This document shows, piece after piece, positions 27,638 through 53,503 of a DNA stretch of 64,000 nt (the stretch's first letter is position 1; each line of letters starts with the position of its first letter). This DNA comes from Asanoa ferruginea (lineage in GTDB: Bacteria; Actinomycetota; Actinomycetes; Mycobacteriales; Micromonosporaceae), in the NCBI RefSeq assembly GCF_003387075.1, contig NZ_QUMQ01000001.1:3968001-4032000 (forward strand), given 5' to 3'. Position numbers and translations under genes: made by a program. Below the pieces are notes generated by a model, which had not been told where the DNA came from, made no database searches, and saw only the letters and a program-made list of their open reading frames with translations.

Positions 27638-27655
27638 CCCTTGGCCGCCATGAAG

Positions 27656-27817
27656 GTCGGCGCGGAGGCTGCGAACTGAGGCCCGCGATGTGGCGGGCCG
27701 GGTCGCCGCCTGTCGGCGGGCCTGAACCTTGGTGAAGTCGGCGCGGAGGCTGCGAACTGAGGCCCGCGATGTGGCGGGCCGGGGCGGCGCCCGTCGGCGG
27801 GCCTAAACCGCGGTGAA
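27656..27817. repeat. Two tandem 81-bp repeats between ddl and the HIT gene
   Basis: Copy 1 is 27656-27736 and copy 2 is 27737-27817, nearly identical over their first ~52 bp (GTCGGCGCGGAGG start). Each contains the hairpin GGCCCGC-GATGTG-GCGGGCC. A diverged partial copy begins at 27818 and coincides with the 3' end of the HIT coding sequence, including its last codons. The array therefore looks like duplication of the gene end plus its 3' flank. The hairpins could serve as terminators between the convergent ddl and HIT transcripts. Confidence 0.85.
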
Positions 27818-28243
27818 GTAGGTGCGGAGGCGGGCGACGAGGGCGGCGATCTCCGGGTCGCCGCCGCGCGGCGCCTCCGCCCAGCCGGTGCTGGCATACC
27901 AGGGCGTTTCCGCGGGGGTGCCCCGGTAGCGCGGGAACACGTGCTGGTGGAAATGCGGCACAGCGGCGCCGATCACGGCGGAGAAGACGTGCTCGGCGTC
28001 GACTTCGGCGCGCAGCCCGATCGCCGCGCGCCGGGCGGCGCTGCCGACCGCGGAAGCCTCCACATCGGTCAGGTCGTCGAGGTGGGGCGCGTGCCGCAAC
28101 GGCTCGATGAACAGATAGCCGAGCAGCACCGGGCCCTCGCGGGCCGGCAGGTGGGAAACCGCGACGATGTCGTCGCGCCAGATCTCCGGACCGACCAGCG
28201 GCCCTTCGCCACGATGCTTCGCGCAGATGGGGCACTCATCCAT
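27803..28243 (-). CDS. HIT-family hydrolase
   Basis: A 146-residue histidine-triad protein. The catalytic motif HFHQHVFPRY is near residue 97, and an N-terminal Cys pair (MDECPICAKH) with downstream His is typical of zinc-binding HIT proteins. It hydrolyses nucleoside phosphoramidates or dinucleoside polyphosphates; the exact substrate is unknown. It lies 23 bp downstream of recG on the same strand. Its last codons overlap the second 81-bp repeat. Confidence 0.88.
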   Translation of the reverse strand: MDECPICAKHRGEGPLVGPEIWRDDIVAVSHLPAREGPVLLGYLFIEPLRHAPHLDDLTDVEASAVGSAARRAAIGLRAEVDAEHVFSAVIGAAVPHFHQHVFPRYRGTPAETPWYASTGWAEAPRGGDPEIAALVARLRTYFTAV

Positions 28244-30447: not shown

Positions 30448-32438
30448 TCGACGCCTACCAGCAGCGGATAGTGCGGGTGCCCACCGGAGTAGGTGTGCAC
30501 CTCGACGAACGGCCAGTGCGCGGCCGCGTGCGCGCGCAGCCCGTCGGCCAGCCCGGCCGGCGCGTCGGCGCCGGTGACCAGGGTGACCAGCTCGCCACCG
30601 CCGCCGAGCAGGCGGTCGAGCAGCTCACGGCAGGTCTCGGCCAGGTCGACGCCGATCAGGTGGACCTCGCCCTCGACGAGCGCCAGCACGTCGCCGCGCC
30701 GGCACGGGCCCGCGACGGTCAGCGCGTCGCGGCTGGCGTAGCAGACCTCGGCGTAGCGGCAGGCGCCCGCGGCCTTGGCCATCTCGATCACGTCGTCGTC
30801 GAACTCGCGGGCCGGATCACGCACCGCGAGCGCGGCCAGCGCCTGCACGGGGGAGCGGGTCGCCACCACCCGGACCGCCGCGGTCGCCTCCCGCGCCGCC
30901 GCGGCGGCCACCGGCTGGGTGTTGGGGTCGTTGGGCAGCACCACGACGTGTGCGGCGCCGGTGGCGGTGATCGCCGCGAGCAACTCGCGGGTCGACGGGT
31001 TGGCGGGCACCACGGCCGCGCCCTCGCCGGCGAAGATCGCGGCGATGCCCTCGCCTGCGGCGACCACCACGACGGCCCGGTCGGGGCCGTCGGGGATCAC
31101 CTGGTCGGCGAAGCGGGTGACCGAGATGCGGTGTGGCCGGCCGGCCTCGACACCGGCCTCCAGGGTGGCGCCGACGTCGTTGACGTGGACGTGCACGTTC
31201 CAGGTGGACTCGTCGCCCTCACCGGTGCCGACCACGACGAGCGAGTCGCCAAGCTCGGCGAGCCGGGACCGCAACTTTTCCACGGCCGGCTCGGCGGCGT
31301 CGAGCAGGAACTGCACCTCATACCCGAACTCGGCCGAGCCGGTCTCCCGCGCGGCGACCAGCGCCCGGTTGGCACGCGGCCGCGGCACCGGCTGCGGCTC
31401 GACGGGTGACTCGCCGGTGACCACCTCGACGAGCGCGTCGAGCAGCACGCAAAGGCCACGCCCGCCGGCGTCGACCACACCCGCCCGGGCCAGCGCGGGA
31501 AGCTGCTCCGGCGTCTTGGCCAGCGCCCCGGCCGCCGCACGGGCGGCGGCCTGTGCCACCTCGGCCAGCGATCCAGCCCCGGCCCGCCCTGCGGCGGCGC
31601 CTTGGGCCAGGTCGGCTGGCCAGCCGGCGCCGGCCCGACCGGCATGCGTCGCGCCGGGTTCTGGAGCGCTAGTGGCCGGGGGCTCGGCGGTGGTGGCGGT
31701 GTCCGTCCCGCTGGTGGCCGGGGGCTCGGCGGTGGTGGCGGTGTCCGTGCCGCTGGTGGCCGGGGGCTCGGCGGTGGTGGGGGTGTCCGTGCCGCTGGTG
31801 GCCGGGGGCTCGGCGGTGGTGGGGGTGTCCGTGCCGCTGGTTGTGGCCGGGGGCTCGGCGGTGGTGGGGGTGTCCGTGCCGCTGGTGGCCGGGGGCTCGG
31901 CGGTGGTGGCGGTGTCCGTGCCGCTAGTGGCCGGGGGCTCGGCGGTGGTGGCGGTGTTCGTGCCGCGCTCTGGAGGGCCGGTGGCCGCGCGCTCGGCGGC
32001 GGTCGCGGCCGCGGCGGCCACTGTCAGGACCGTGCCCTCGACCGGGTTCGCGACCGCGCCGTAGGCGGCGTCGGCTCCGGCGCGCAGGCCGCGGGCCAGT
32101 GCCGGCCCGTCGACCACCGGCACCGCCGAGGTGGCGTCGGCCAGGCCGCGCAGCACCTGGGAGATGATCACGCCGGAGTTGCCGCGGGCGCCGAGCAGGG
32201 CGCCGCGGGCCATCAGGCGCAGCACCTGGCCGTGTGGGGTCGGGTCGCCCTCGGCGGCCGGGTCGAAGAACAGCGCCTCGTGGGCCGAGGTCAGCGTCAG
32301 CACGAGGTTGGTGCCGGTGTCGCCGTCGGGCACCGGGTAGACGTTGAGCGCGTCGATCTCGCCCTGATGGCGGCGCAGGGCCGCCAACGCACCCGCGCAC
32401 CAGCGGCGCAGCGCCGTGGCGTCGAGGCTCTCCAACAC
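30444..32438 (-). CDS. DAK2/FakA-like kinase-phosphatase family protein with internal repeat linker
   Basis: A 664-residue protein. An N-terminal DhaL (Dak2) domain has ALNVYPVPDGDTGTNL (Mg-ATP binding) at about 31-46, GARGNSGVIISQVLRG near 87 and GVVDAGGRGLCVLLDAL near 315. A C-terminal DegV-like domain includes NVHVHVNDVGATLEAG and FADQVIPDGPD. FakA homologs phosphorylate fatty acids with FakB; actinobacterial members are uncharacterised. Between residues ~158 and 262 the DhaL domain is interrupted by seven 14-residue repeats (core TTAEPPATSGTD). In most homologs this loop is short. It is co-transcribed with recG. Confidence 0.9.
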   Translation of the reverse strand: MLESLDATALRRWCAGALAALRRHQGEIDALNVYPVPDGDTGTNLVLTLTSAHEALFFDPAAEGDPTPHGQVLRLMARGALLGARGNSGVIISQVLRGLADATSAVPVVDGPALARGLRAGADAAYGAVANPVEGTVLTVAAAAATAAERAATGPPERGTNTATTAEPPATSGTDTATTAEPPATSGTDTPTTAEPPATTSGTDTPTTAEPPATSGTDTPTTAEPPATSGTDTATTAEPPATSGTDTATTAEPPATSAPEPGATHAGRAGAGWPADLAQGAAAGRAGAGSLAEVAQAAARAAAGALAKTPEQLPALARAGVVDAGGRGLCVLLDALVEVVTGESPVEPQPVPRPRANRALVAARETGSAEFGYEVQFLLDAAEPAVEKLRSRLAELGDSLVVVGTGEGDESTWNVHVHVNDVGATLEAGVEAGRPHRISVTRFADQVIPDGPDRAVVVVAAGEGIAAIFAGEGAAVVPANPSTRELLAAITATGAAHVVVLPNDPNTQPVAAAAAREATAAVRVVATRSPVQALAALAVRDPAREFDDDVIEMAKAAGACRYAEVCYASRDALTVAGPCRRGDVLALVEGEVHLIGVDLAETCRELLDRLLGGGGELVTLVTGADAPAGLADGLRAHAAAHWPFVEVHTYSGGHPHYPLLVGVE
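31668..31975. repeat. 42-bp minisatellite inside the DAK2 gene
   Basis: Seven tandem units, with GGCTCGGCGG at 31681, 31723, 31765, 31807, 31852, 31894 and 31936. The period is 42 bp except one 45-bp unit that adds a Thr codon. All changes keep the frame. Units differ mainly at one Ala/Pro codon. Confidence 0.92.
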
Positions 32439-49618: not shown

Positions 49619-50234
49619 CCACGCCGAAACCCGCGCCACGCCAGGCCATCACGCGGCGGGCGTGCTCGAGCTGCCACGGCGGGACACTGTGGATCAGGTG
49701 GCCGTCGCCGGGCAGCGCGCCCTCGCCGTCCCACTCCTGATACTCGTCCCAGCCGCCCTCGAACACGCAGATCGGCACGCCCAACTCGCGGTAGACCGGG
49801 TCGGTCGGGGTGCCGGGGTTGAGCACGGTCGCGAACAGCCCCGCTCGTCGGGCGACCCGCACCGCGAGCGCCACCGGGCCCAGCCCATAGGCGCCGGTCG
49901 GTGACTGATCCAGGAACACACCCGACATCGGGTACGCGGCCCAGCGGTTGACGTCGTCGAGGATGTCGGCGATCGGCCGGGCCGAGTAGCCCAGGTCGAC
50001 GTAGCCCAGCATCGGCACGCCGGCGGCCGCCAGGCGCGAGGTCGCCAGCACGTAGTCCTCGTCGACGACCGCACCGGGTCCATCGTGGACGTTGACGATC
50101 ACGGTGGCGCCGTCGAGCGCGTCCGGGTCCCAGGCGTGCGGATCCTCGGCCGGGTGCACGTAGAGCGGCACGAGCCGGGTCGGTGCCGGCACGGCAGTGG
50201 TGGCGCCGGGAATCCGGCGCGGCAGCTCGGTCAT
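49539..50234 (-). CDS. Spherulation-specific family 4 (spherulin-4-like) protein
   Basis: A 231-residue protein from ATG 50234, overlapping the upstream stop by ATGA. LVPLYVHPAEDPHAWD at the start, ATVIVNVHDGPG, AGVPMLGYVDLGYSARP and VFLDQSP are typical of this TIM-barrel family, which is related to GH114-type galactosaminidases. Family members occur in exopolysaccharide clusters. No signal peptide is visible, which is unusual for a polysaccharide hydrolase. It is the last gene of the glycosyltransferase operon. Confidence 0.85.
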   Translation of the reverse strand: MTELPRRIPGATTAVPAPTRLVPLYVHPAEDPHAWDPDALDGATVIVNVHDGPGAVVDEDYVLATSRLAAAGVPMLGYVDLGYSARPIADILDDVNRWAAYPMSGVFLDQSPTGAYGLGPVALAVRVARRAGLFATVLNPGTPTDPVYRELGVPICVFEGGWDEYQEWDGEGALPGDGHLIHSVPPWQLEHARRVMAWRGAGFGVVTDRWMPNPWHGLPSDSPRPLAVVPG

Positions 50235-51679
50235 CGGTAGCTCCCGGGATGGAAGACGGTGTGTGCGGTGGCGGCGAGGCCGAGCACCGAAGTCGCGGCC
50301 AGGCCGGCCACCGTCGCGGGCAACAACACCTGGATCAACGAGTCGACGCCGCCGCCCGGCACGGCCACCAGCCAACCGGCGACGGGTACCACCGCGAAGG
50401 CGACCGGCGCGAGCGCCAGGAACGCGGCGAGCAACAGCCGGCCCCGCGTGGCGAGCAGCAGCGTCGCCGCCCAGCCACCGGCCAGCAGCACGCCGGCCGC
50501 GACCGCCAGCACCAACGCCCGCGCGTCCGGGTGGCGGGACAGCTCGTATGGCAGCCGGAACGCGGCCACCACGAGCGCCGCGCCGATCGCGAGCGGCGGC
50601 AGCAGCGCCGCGAGCGTCACCGTGCCCAGGCCGCGCAGGTGTCGGCGGTAGGCGGCCACGTCGTCGTAGGTGTCCAGGCCGCCGGCGACACTGGCCGCGT
50701 GCCAACCGATGAACACCTCGATCAGGGGTACGGCCAGCAGCAGCGGGAGGGTCGCCGGCGGCGGGGTGCCGCCCTCGCCCGGCACCAGCCGCCAGACCAG
50801 CAGGAACGCGCCCGCCTGGCCGGCACCGATCGCCAGGTAGGCGAACACAGCGGCGACCGGGGTGCGGGCCGGTACCCGGGACCGGTCGCGGCGCAGCGCC
50901 GGCACGAACGCCCGGGCGGCGGCGAGCCCGACAGCGGCGCCGAGCACCCAGCCGTAGCGGGCCGGCAGCAGGCCCGCCAGCATCGCCAGGCTGACCAGCC
51001 AGGCCGGCACCGACCAGCGCAGCACCGCGGCCACCCGGTCGCCGACCAGCGCGGCGGCGGTGCCCGCGAAGGCGAGAAGTTCTACACCGCAGACGGCGTA
51101 CGCCACCGTCCGCTCGCCGACCAGGTCGGCCGGGCCGAACGCGATCGCCGCCGCGCACCCGCCCGCGCCGAGCAGCAGTCCGGCGATCACCCGGCGCACG
51201 GCCGCACCGGTCGCGCCGTGCCCGGCCCGGGCATACCCGGCGCAGGCCAGCGCCTGACCGCCGGACCAGCCGAGCAGCAGCGTCGCGGCGAGCAGCGGCC
51301 AGCCGACCCGGGCCAGCGTCGCGTCCGCGGCGAGCGCGGCCAGGGCCGGTGTGAGGAACAGCGCCGCCCGGGCCAGCGCGGCGCGGGCGAACGGCGGCGC
51401 GGCCGGCCGGGCCGGTGCGGCACCCGGCCGGTGCCGCTGCGCCCACAGCCGGGCCAGCACCGCCTCGCCGAGCGCGAACACCGTCGGCACGCCGTACTTG
51501 ACCTGCGCCTGCCGATCGCTGATGCCGGCGGCTTCGATCGCCGCGACCAGCTCGTCGACGTCGACCACGACCGCGCTCCCGGCGGCGAACCGCTCGACCA
51601 GATCGGCGACGGACCGCGGCGCCGGCCCTCCCGGTGGAAACGGCCCGACCCGCTGCGGCCCCACCGTCGGAGCGCTCAT
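50231..51679 (-). CDS. Polytopic membrane protein of the exopolysaccharide operon
   Basis: A 482-residue protein from ATG 51679 (MSAPTVGPQRVG). A ~70-residue soluble N-terminus (VVVDVDELVAAIEAAGISDRQAQVKYG) is followed by about 11-12 membrane helices from residue ~95. It is flanked by a PelF-like glycosyltransferase and a spherulin-4 protein and is coupled to both by ATGA junctions, so it is likely the polysaccharide export or polymerising membrane partner. I see no certain match to PelG or other flippases, so function is inferred from context only. Confidence 0.8.
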   Translation of the reverse strand: MSAPTVGPQRVGPFPPGGPAPRSVADLVERFAAGSAVVVDVDELVAAIEAAGISDRQAQVKYGVPTVFALGEAVLARLWAQRHRPGAAPARPAAPPFARAALARAALFLTPALAALAADATLARVGWPLLAATLLLGWSGGQALACAGYARAGHGATGAAVRRVIAGLLLGAGGCAAAIAFGPADLVGERTVAYAVCGVELLAFAGTAAALVGDRVAAVLRWSVPAWLVSLAMLAGLLPARYGWVLGAAVGLAAARAFVPALRRDRSRVPARTPVAAVFAYLAIGAGQAGAFLLVWRLVPGEGGTPPPATLPLLLAVPLIEVFIGWHAASVAGGLDTYDDVAAYRRHLRGLGTVTLAALLPPLAIGAALVVAAFRLPYELSRHPDARALVLAVAAGVLLAGGWAATLLLATRGRLLLAAFLALAPVAFAVVPVAGWLVAVPGGGVDSLIQVLLPATVAGLAATSVLGLAATAHTVFHPGSYR

Positions 51680-52064
51680 GCGGGTGCCTCGCTGCGCTCG
51701 GCGGGGCCTGACCGCAATGCACTGAGCTGGCTGGTTCGCTCGCTGCGCTCGCTCATGCGGGTGCCTCGCTGCGCTGGGCGGGGCCTGACCGCGATGCACT
51801 GAGCTGGCTGGTTCGCTCGCTGCGCTCGCTCATGCGGGTGCCTCGCTGCGCTGGGCGGGGCCTGACCGCGATGCACTGAGCTGGCTGGTTCGCTCGCTGC
51901 GCTCGCTCATGCGGGTGCCTCGCTGCGCTGGGCGGGGCCTGACCGCGATGCACTGAGCTGGCTGGTTCGCTCGCTGCGCTCGCTCATGCGGGTGCCTCGC
52001 TGCGCTGGGCGGGGCCTGACCGCGATGCACTGAGCTGGCTGGTTCGCTCGCTGCGCTCGCTCAT
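51676..52064 (-). other. Chain of five ATGA-coupled 26-codon minigenes
   Basis: Reading the minus strand, ORFs lie at 52064-51984, 51987-51907, 51910-51830, 51833-51753 and 51756-51676. Each is 81 nt, encodes a peptide starting MSERSERTSQ and ending RSEAPA, and shares ATGA with the next. The first ATG overlaps the glycosyltransferase TGA, and the last TGA overlaps the membrane-protein ATG. Whether the peptides are made is not known. The arrangement would let ribosomes pass from stop to start along the whole operon. Confidence 0.6.
51677..52061 (-). repeat. Five tandem 77-bp units between glycosyltransferase and membrane protein genes
   Basis: Units begin at 51677, 51754, 51831, 51908 and 51985. 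Four are identical; the one at 51677 differs at two bases (giving Leu for Ser and Glu for Gln in the encoded peptide). On the minus strand every unit starts ATGAGCGAGCGCAGCGAGCG and ends CGAGGCACCCGC, so it carries its own GAGG-type SD, 7 nt ahead of the next ATG. This fills the 381-bp gap between the two genes. Confidence 0.97.
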
Positions 52065-53503
52065 GCCGCGACCGTCCCGGCGGCGGATCGGACGTCGGCG
52101 TAGAGCTGGCGGTAGGCCGCGAGCATCCGGTCGACGGTGAAGTGGGCCAGCGCGCGTTCCCGGCCGAGCGCGCCGAGCGTGCGCCGCCGTTCCGGGTCGG
52201 CGAGCAGCGCCAGGCAGGCCTGGCCGAGGGCGACCGGGTCACCCGGCGGCACGATCAGGCCGGCCGGGCCGACCACCTCGGAGACGCCGCCGACGTCGGT
52301 GCTGACCGTCGGCCGGCCGCACATCATCGCCTCGATGATCGTGTAGGGCAGGCCCTCGGAGATGCTCGACAGGGCGACCACGTGGCCGTCCGCGTACGCC
52401 TGGCGGCTGCTGGTCACCGGCCCCGACAGGTCGACCGCCGCGCGCAGGCCGAGCCGCTCGATCAGGGCGAGGCAGCTCGCCGCGTAGTCGCGGCCGGTCT
52501 CCGGCACCGGGCCGGCCAGCCGCAGCCGGGCCAGCGGCTCGGCGTCGCGGATCGTGCGCATCGCCCGGATCAGCGTGTGCAGGTCCTTGAGCGGGTCGAT
52601 CCGGCCGACCCAGGCGATCGTCGGCACCGTCGGCTCGGTCGCCAGCGGCGGGTAGCGCAGCGGCTCGACCCCGTTGGGCACCACGACGACCTTGGCCGGG
52701 TGGGCGCCGTGCCGCAGCTCCCAGCGCTGGTTGAAGCGGCTGACCGCGGCCACCAACTCGGCCTCGGCATACCCGAGGCGGGCCAGCGCACGGTAGAACC
52801 GCAGCAGCACGGTCTTGACCGCGACGGGCAGCGCGGCGCCATATTCCAGATAGCGTTCGCGCAGGTAGACGCCGTGTTCGGTGAGCAGGAACGGTGTTCC
52901 GGCGCGCCACTTGGCGGCCAGCGCGACGAGCACCGGCAGGCCCGCGGCGGCCGGGTGGCACAGATCCACCCGCGGGGTGCGATAGGCGAGCGGGCGCACC
53001 GCGTGCTCGATCAGCGACGCGGCCGCGCGGGCGTCGCGCAGCGAGAGCCGGGGCAGGGGTGGCCGGCCGGCCGACGGTCCCGCCGACGCCTGCCAGGCGT
53101 CGAGCAGCACTTCGGGGAGCTCCGTACCGAACAAGGGGTGTGATCCGTCGCCACACAGTTCGGTGAGCCGGCGCAGCCCGTCGGCGAACATGCCGGCGCT
53201 GTGCGGGTCGTCACCGAGCAGTCCGCGACAGAGCAGCACGGCCGCGGCCGACGCGGCGCGGCGACGCCGGTGCCGCGCGACCCGCCCGGAGACACTGACC
53301 GGGCGATCCCAGACGGGGTAGGTGTCGACGGCGGTGACCGACGGCGGAACCGGATAGACCGGCGCCCGTGAGCCTCCGTGCCCGGTCAGCGCGACGACGT
53401 GGAACGCGTGGCCGTCGAGCCCGTTCAGAATCTGGTGGCACCAGGTGCCGACGCCTCCGGGCGCGTACGGGTAGGTGCCTTCGTTGATCAGTGCGACGCG
53501 CAC
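52061..53503 (-). CDS. PelF-like family 4 glycosyltransferase (DUF3492)
   Basis: A 480-residue protein from GTG 53503. The opening VALINEGTYPYAPGGVGTWCHQIL is the PelF/DUF3492 signature. LLTEHGVYLRERYLEY and VSRFNQRWELRHGA follow in the N-domain. GT4 donor-site motifs are VPNGVEPLRY, WVGRIDPLKDLHTLI and SISEGLPYTIIEAMMCGRPTVSTDVGGVSEVVG. PelF uses UDP-sugars in synthesis of Pel-type polysaccharide. It is the first gene of the operon with the membrane and spherulin-4 proteins. The other pel genes are not in this window. Confidence 0.88.
   Translation of the reverse strand: MRVALINEGTYPYAPGGVGTWCHQILNGLDGHAFHVVALTGHGGSRAPVYPVPPSVTAVDTYPVWDRPVSVSGRVARHRRRRAASAAAVLLCRGLLGDDPHSAGMFADGLRRLTELCGDGSHPLFGTELPEVLLDAWQASAGPSAGRPPLPRLSLRDARAAASLIEHAVRPLAYRTPRVDLCHPAAAGLPVLVALAAKWRAGTPFLLTEHGVYLRERYLEYGAALPVAVKTVLLRFYRALARLGYAEAELVAAVSRFNQRWELRHGAHPAKVVVVPNGVEPLRYPPLATEPTVPTIAWVGRIDPLKDLHTLIRAMRTIRDAEPLARLRLAGPVPETGRDYAASCLALIERLGLRAAVDLSGPVTSSRQAYADGHVVALSSISEGLPYTIIEAMMCGRPTVSTDVGGVSEVVGPAGLIVPPGDPVALGQACLALLADPERRRTLGALGRERALAHFTVDRMLAAYRQLYADVRSAAGTVAA

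Follow-up and report, generated by a model that had tools for sequence, protein, structure and literature searches.

A chain of stop/start-overlapping mini-ORFs in Asanoa ferruginea belongs to a dispersed, MIRU-like family of repeats at gene overlaps

The window analysed here is a stretch of 64,000 nucleotides of Asanoa ferruginea (contig NZ_QUMQ01000001.1, positions 3,968,001 to 4,032,000). Between a glycosyltransferase gene and a gene for a probable membrane protein it holds, on the minus strand at 51676-52064, five 77-bp units that form five 26-codon ORFs joined via ATGA overlaps. This chain, running from the glycosyltransferase stop to the membrane-protein start, had been put forward in the original prediction and is confirmed by direct reading and by TRF (77 bp x 5.1, 99% matches). 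The features are listed below.

52061..53503, minus strand: upstream gene, GT4-type glycosyltransferase with DUF3492 (Pfam PF11997 8e-44, PF13692 1e-28; start codon uncertain)
51984..52064, minus strand: mini-ORF of unit 1, whose ATG overlaps the glycosyltransferase stop as ATGA (direct reading, TRF)
51907..51987, minus strand: mini-ORF of unit 2 (direct reading, TRF)
51830..51910, minus strand: mini-ORF of unit 3 (direct reading, TRF)
51753..51833, minus strand: mini-ORF of unit 4 (direct reading, TRF)
51676..51756, minus strand: mini-ORF of unit 5, with two substitutions; its TGA overlaps the membrane-protein ATG (direct reading, TRF)
51995..51998, minus strand: Shine-Dalgarno-like GAGG in unit 1, placed 7 nt ahead of the ATG that follows (direct reading)
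51918-51921, 51841-51844, 51764-51767 and 51687-51690, minus strand: GAGG of the further units, at 77-bp spacing (direct reading)
50231..51679, minus strand: downstream gene, encoding a hydrophobic protein of 482 aa, probably a membrane protein (nothing in Pfam at E 0.001)

Each mini-ORF spans 81 nt (26 codons plus TGA), and every TGA lies within an ATGA shared with the following ATG; the first link of the chain is the glycosyltransferase TGA (52063-52061) and the last is the membrane-protein ATG (51679). The unit had also been predicted to supply GAGG 7 nt before each ATG. This holds for units 2-5 and for the membrane gene and fails for the first mini-ORF, in front of which the glycosyltransferase gene comes to its end. 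Elsewhere in the window there are 623 RTGA sites, 40 of which open an ORF of 24-30 codons, and because only 8 of those 40 end on RTGA we conclude that the fivefold chain is not due to chance; for ORFs of any length the figure is 173/623 (28%). Units 1-4 are identical and unit 5, adjoining the membrane gene, carries two base differences. The four identical units indicate that the window array itself probably grew locally and recently, presumably by slippage. The window holds two other tandem repeats, one at 31667-31966 with a 42-bp unit (about 7 copies, 95% matches) that is a multiple of three and perhaps coding, and one at 27651-27831 with an 81-bp unit (2.2 copies, 91% matches).

A dispersed family of the 77-bp unit, as the original prediction had suspected, was found both in the A. 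ferruginea genome and in its relatives. Searching the genome (9.07 Mb, single contig) with the model R1 (E up to 0.01, 150 candidates scored) identified 25 units at what we group as 18 loci, comprising the five of the window array, three at C1:2902600, two at C1:5809322, two separate units near C1:7934000 and 13 single units; Asanoa congeners carry 10 to 26 R1 units each. Protein starts of the MSERSER type, mentioned in the original prediction, are likewise present among the family copies.

Unit lengths in the A. ferruginea genome are mostly 74-80 bp and range from 56 to 101 bp, the odd-length units (one of 101 bp, one of 56 bp and some of 71 bp) all being 2 mod 3. Lengths have drifted (56-101 bp, together with fused arrays), yet 17/17 copies that were read still end on NTGA. 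A separate nhmmer set was gathered with the 77-bp unit, a query that includes the left TGA and leaves the right-hand RTGA outside. Excluded from it are L009 and L010, which belong to the array of L008, as well as L013 (read separately) and one match with E above 5. A right-hand RTGA, sought solely at lengths of 2 mod 3, was present in 33 of the 36 entries of this set, two of which are window units, at 74 bp (17), 77 bp (15) or 80 bp (1). The three exceptions are two 78-bp units of the C1:2902600 array and L018. Unit lengths that break the overlap, which the original prediction had held to speak against it, thus do occur as the two 78-bp units (C1:2902599 onward), but a single frame of 79 codons reads through all three units of that array and still ends on the next gene's ATGA. 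At L018 (G003, 1500-2300) the element has lost its 3' part, and the mini-ORF continues in frame into an ABC-type ATPase (Pfam PF00005), giving the latter the N-terminal extension MSERSERGQLS; L060 (G004, another species), with the same left flank, has a full unit. This ortholog pair exemplifies decay to an MSERSER-start extension. Together, the unit lengths and the changed arrays support the proposed rule that lengths of 2 mod 3 let copy number change while the overlap is kept.

The family extends well beyond Asanoa. Within the host's family, R1 matched (E up to 0.01) at least 92 of 150 genomes and at least 28 of 44 genera, counts that are lower bounds with 31 candidates scored per genome. In the order, 95/348 genomes matched at E up to 0.01, a threshold at which a few single matches are expected by chance; 42 of these lie outside the family, and 19 of the outside-family genomes were searched again, all 19 with a match. 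Thirty of the 44 outside-family matches were read, and 26 of them show NTGA, an ORF of 25-30 codons and NTGA. Among the other four, L120 fits the pattern, L124 stops early on GTGA (24 codons), L139 consists of two fused units and L130 is without an element-like end. Genus g63, a member of the family that includes Mycobacterium (genus g51, identified by the abundance of PE genes), is among the matching outside-family genomes. Over the phylum, 8/396 genomes matched at E up to 0.001, four of them outside the order.

Across 85 model matches in 80 loci, all 85 have a left NTGA and an ORF ending on NTGA, figures that are biased upward because R1 includes the NTGA ends. The ORFs are 25-27 codons long in 78 cases, four more are fused tandem units from three arrays, and the outliers are L124 (24 codons), L127 (30) and L130 (232, doubtful). 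An earlier in-frame stop occurs in 1/85 matches (L124), a comparison biased for the mini-ORF frame by the selection of units on ORF length. Loci outside the order were counted neither for nor against the family, because 28% of RTGA ORFs end on RTGA anyway; two of these matches (L210 and L211) have no such NTGA start. In L213, TTGA repeats accompany three ORFs, 20, 64 and 27 codons long, that end on NTGA, and L210 and L213, from other orders, share a TTGAGCGAGCGCAGCGAG-type motif that is repeated in L213. L208 (1501 onward; G1188, outside the host's class) has the left half of the element, ATGA, a 41-codon ORF and ATGA, behind an upstream frame of 298 codons; this may represent either the most distant member of the family or a motif in common. 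Carriage on plasmids or viral contigs was dropped as a route, since 1 of 72,556 plasmid records matched the two-unit query (a Streptomyces plasmid, E 3e-3) and viral contigs gave 0 exact matches to one 24-base element pattern. Rfam at gathering scores, applied to five sources, returned only two tRNAs, at 11.5-11.7 kb of the window.

Comparison of orthologous sites supports the suggestion of a dispersed element that has been inserted where stop and start overlap as RTGA. In A. siamensis, A. iriomotensis, A. hainanensis and A. ishikariensis the window site has no insert, and the upstream stop runs straight into the downstream start as ATGA. The window glycosyltransferase has its nearest named relatives in four Asanoa species (90-91% identity). 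For ten of the 18 A. ferruginea sites, among them that of the window, the joined flanks were sought in five congeners, which may in part be identical with the named species. All ten were contiguous in at least one congener, and five (L007, L043, L001, L013 and the window) were contiguous in all five. Aligned base by base, 30 loci over nine sites comprised 28 empty and 2 filled at the same place. Every empty junction has RTGA (27 ATGA, 1 GTGA), and in 27/28 the TGA ends an upstream open frame, of at least 230 codons in 26 and of 47 codons in one; at the remaining empty site, L186, the upstream frame ends elsewhere than at the junction TGA. In A. ferruginea itself, 17/18 loci have an open frame of at least 230 codons that terminates on the left NTGA; at L012 a 19-codon leader takes its place. 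From these comparisons we infer gain in the A. ferruginea lineage rather than loss in the others.

The flanking genes had Pfam matches on both sides at 11/18 loci, on one side at six, and on neither of the scanned sides at L250b. We take the pairs to include rRNA methyltransferase and NAD kinase, PafB/PafC-type regulators, SbcD/SbcC-type proteins, methylmalonyl-CoA mutase and MeaB, two permeases, a cobalt transporter and its ATPase, and FAD and molybdopterin subunits.

Copy number differs between species, one genome per species being compared. Upstream of an RNase Y-like gene 0, 1 or 2 units occur: none in G003, one each in G000 and G001, a 56-bp version in G002, and in G005 two units, the first of them shortened; the junctions have the NTGA form. 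At the L012 site (G000 C1:4210485; orthologs L256 and L257) a short leader ORF (MTGRHR...) precedes the RNase Y-like gene in several Asanoa; the leader overlaps the next start as ATGA where read (G000, G005), and the element lies between leader and RNase Y-like gene. At an FtsX-permease site, the decayed insert of G005 reads as a single ORF of 36 codons, once more closed by ATGA. Duplication of some 15 bp of the target was considered and rejected, as it is absent from the window and from most other copies read. About 15 bp are common to the left flank and the right end of the element (GAGG...RTGA) in L049, L072 and L105 at one orthologous site and in L138, resembling a target-site duplication or a conversion tract.

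A hairpin inside the mini-ORF extends to the next start codon and covaries. In A2 (33 copies) the named structure had 51 cells with two-sided change vs 19.4 in shuffled and at most 17 in slid controls; by pairs, 10/20 changed on both sides, hardly above the best slid control (9). RNAalifold on its own recovered the inner part only (11 pairs, 4 with two-sided change). A second, ungapped set comprised 80-bp units, 31 of the 39 found, from which 8 from outside the family were omitted: 93.3% of cells pair, 9/14 pairs change on both sides, and 44 cells show two-sided change vs 10.9 shuffled and at most 10 slid. These covariation figures lean towards the hairpin, the 80-bp units having been found with the hairpin-containing model R1 and related copies inflating covariation. 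The pair of the first start-codon base is UA in 20 of the 31, CG in 9 and neither in 2, with a compensatory C in most GTG-start units where ATG-start units carry U; the GTG-start units may be one subfamily. In the 77-bp class the start-codon pair is poor.

The computed cost of opening the downstream start averaged 16.6 kcal/mol for 77 units, compared with 9.5 for 52 left junctions; shuffling the upstream part base by base (385 sequences) gave 9.6. In the window array the computed cost came to 9.5 kcal/mol at four of the unit ends and to 3.8 for the membrane-protein start; the folding energy of the window units was no better than that of shuffles (z 0.32 and 0.33). By these computed energies the hairpin lock appears weak or decayed in the window's own array. 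The four empty orthologs of the window site had opening costs of 7.4 to 23.1 kcal/mol (mean 15.9), as high as in locked units, so that a plain gene junction can be no more open than they are.

Taken together, we consider it very probable that the window array is an amplified copy of a dispersed, non-autonomous mobile element that sits at RTGA overlaps and whose mini-ORF would let ribosomes pass. The element would insert at the RTGA stop/start overlap of two co-oriented genes, its mini-ORF being joined by -4 (NTGA) overlaps to the upstream stop at one end and to the downstream start at the other. A ribosome terminating on the upstream gene would reinitiate on the mini-ORF, move along the chain by repeated termination and reinitiation, and reinitiate on the downstream gene. 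The cost to the operon would then be low, and changes in length or copy number would be tolerated if the total stays 2 mod 3; for the host, the insert would be nearly neutral or would tune expression. In many copies the hairpin would hold the next start codon, along with some of its Shine-Dalgarno sequence, in base pairs, leaving the downstream gene to be opened mainly by a ribosome translating the mini-ORF.

A broader version, to which we give somewhat less than even weight, is that these are order-wide elements of 'translational stealth' that recognise the RTGA overlap, insert in one orientation and bring a start-burying hairpin along with the mini-ORF, with the mycobacterial MIRUs as one branch or a parallel invention. 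Insertion would be silent while the upstream gene is translated, expression of the downstream gene would become strictly dependent on that translation, and decay could leave MSERSER N-terminal extensions. The family also accounts for a number of small ORFs, and for protein starts of the MSERSER type, in the genomes of actinomycetes.

The element may instead be adaptive, the hairpin and mini-ORF being kept to set the ratio of downstream to upstream protein with copy number as the dial, as proposed for the M. tuberculosis repeats. The covarying start-codon hairpin is in keeping with such tuning, as is the correlation of repeat length with fpg1 mRNA level reported in PMC2734929. Against it, all five congeners are empty at five of the ten probed sites, so those gene pairs do not need an element, and the hairpin is decayed in the window array. 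We regard adaptive tuning as unlikely.

A DNA-level repeat of the MITE or REP type, served by a transposase in trans, would make RTGA the transposase target and the mini-ORF a by-product. REP/RAYT, IS200/IS605-type and MITE repeats are short, dispersed, hairpin-bearing and site-specific like the Asanoa element, which differs from them in that its insertions lie at stop/start overlaps with the reading frame kept. Presence or absence precisely at RTGA, the single orientation and the strongly conserved left end all fit a DNA-level origin, whereas the array contains no inverted repeat of 12 or more bases, and a DNA-only element has no need for drifted lengths to remain 2 mod 3 or for fused arrays to end on NTGA. 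We think it rather improbable; it and the coupling element can both be true together.

That the MSERSER peptide of 25-27 residues is a functional microprotein is very doubtful, and this candidate was dropped. Over three length classes the pN/pS of the mini-ORF is 0.29-0.45 in codons 2-9, which would suit a selected peptide, but it is near 1 further on (0.87-1.05 in codons 10-16 and 0.89-0.97 beyond codon 16), and the first codons lie at the end of the element, where they are conserved as DNA. Five mini-ORF peptides had no NCBIfam match and three single-unit peptides no Pfam match; the fused 79-aa ORF gave two sub-threshold Pfam matches. The reading frame is kept and the peptide sequence mostly is not, in line with the earlier suggestion that the peptide is incidental. 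A local minisatellite grown by slippage, with no mobile family behind it, would account for the four identical units but is contradicted by the dispersed copies in this and other genomes and by the empty sites elsewhere, and we give it almost no credence.

MIRUs are widely used for typing tuberculosis strains, and their movement and translational effect are poorly understood. A 2025 review (PMC12548453, citing Supply et al. 1997) describes them as apparently mobile, inserting at start codons, with an ORF coupled to the gene at -4 nt, and by the accounts of this review and PMC2734929 their insertion affects expression little. Reported figures are MIRUs of 40-100 bp at 41 locations in H37Rv (PMC2734929) and five 77-bp units plus one of 53 bp in the M. 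tuberculosis reference strain (PMC2453075). The design principle that the original prediction arrived at is thus a rediscovery, already published for mycobacterial MIRUs. The likeness covers the 40-100-bp units (77 bp in senX3-regX3), scattered and partly tandem in these accounts, next to 25 units at 18 loci in Asanoa; the -4 overlap between mini-ORF and gene; and mobility at start codons, for which the Asanoa family offers filled and empty orthologous sites that point to gain. The Asanoa family differs in having its host outside Mycobacterium and is alike by design, the known MIRUs being compared by description. To the published MIRUs our results add the occurrence outside Mycobacterium, insertion as seen from orthologous sites with and without the element, and a hairpin that covaries and encloses the start codon of the downstream gene.

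According to PMC4213456 the senX3-regX3 spacer repeats are confined to M. leprae and the M. tuberculosis complex and reportedly drive senX3-independent expression of regX3; because of this report, arrays of such a kind may act by transcription. In coupled gene pairs with a hairpin over the start, such as MS2 coat-lysis, the 2025 review has the start buried and opened by upstream translation in an RNA unfolding model (PMC12548453); in the Asanoa element, by contrast, hairpin and coupling ORF travel together as a repeated insert. A literature search listed no such elements outside mycobacteria among its matches, and one with element letters and 'MSERSER' returned botanical papers only. With its design common in soil actinomycetes and many filled and empty sites at hand, the family offers a safe test system for insertion, coupling and copy-number tuning.

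In 17 Mycobacterium genomes R1 gave only chance-level matches (best E 0.044), and most of the 20 weak matches that were read are one recurring stretch inside an apparent gene. The M. tuberculosis-complex array was not found among the genomes searched. A scan for NTGA-ORF-NTGA repeats over 400 kb each of Mycobacterium G397 and G405 returned 53 and 46 candidates. Nine were examined (other than G397_51, with 55 matches, and G405_18, 19 and 20), of which seven had only short or weak partial matches and revealed no such family, and two lie in a run of repeats in G405 that is probably coding. At an apparent murG-murC boundary in Mycobacterium, L148 (G258 C82:42093-42178) carries a short stretch that is duplicated in tandem and contains GCGAGCGAAGCGAGG; its motif is similar, but the repeat is a different one.
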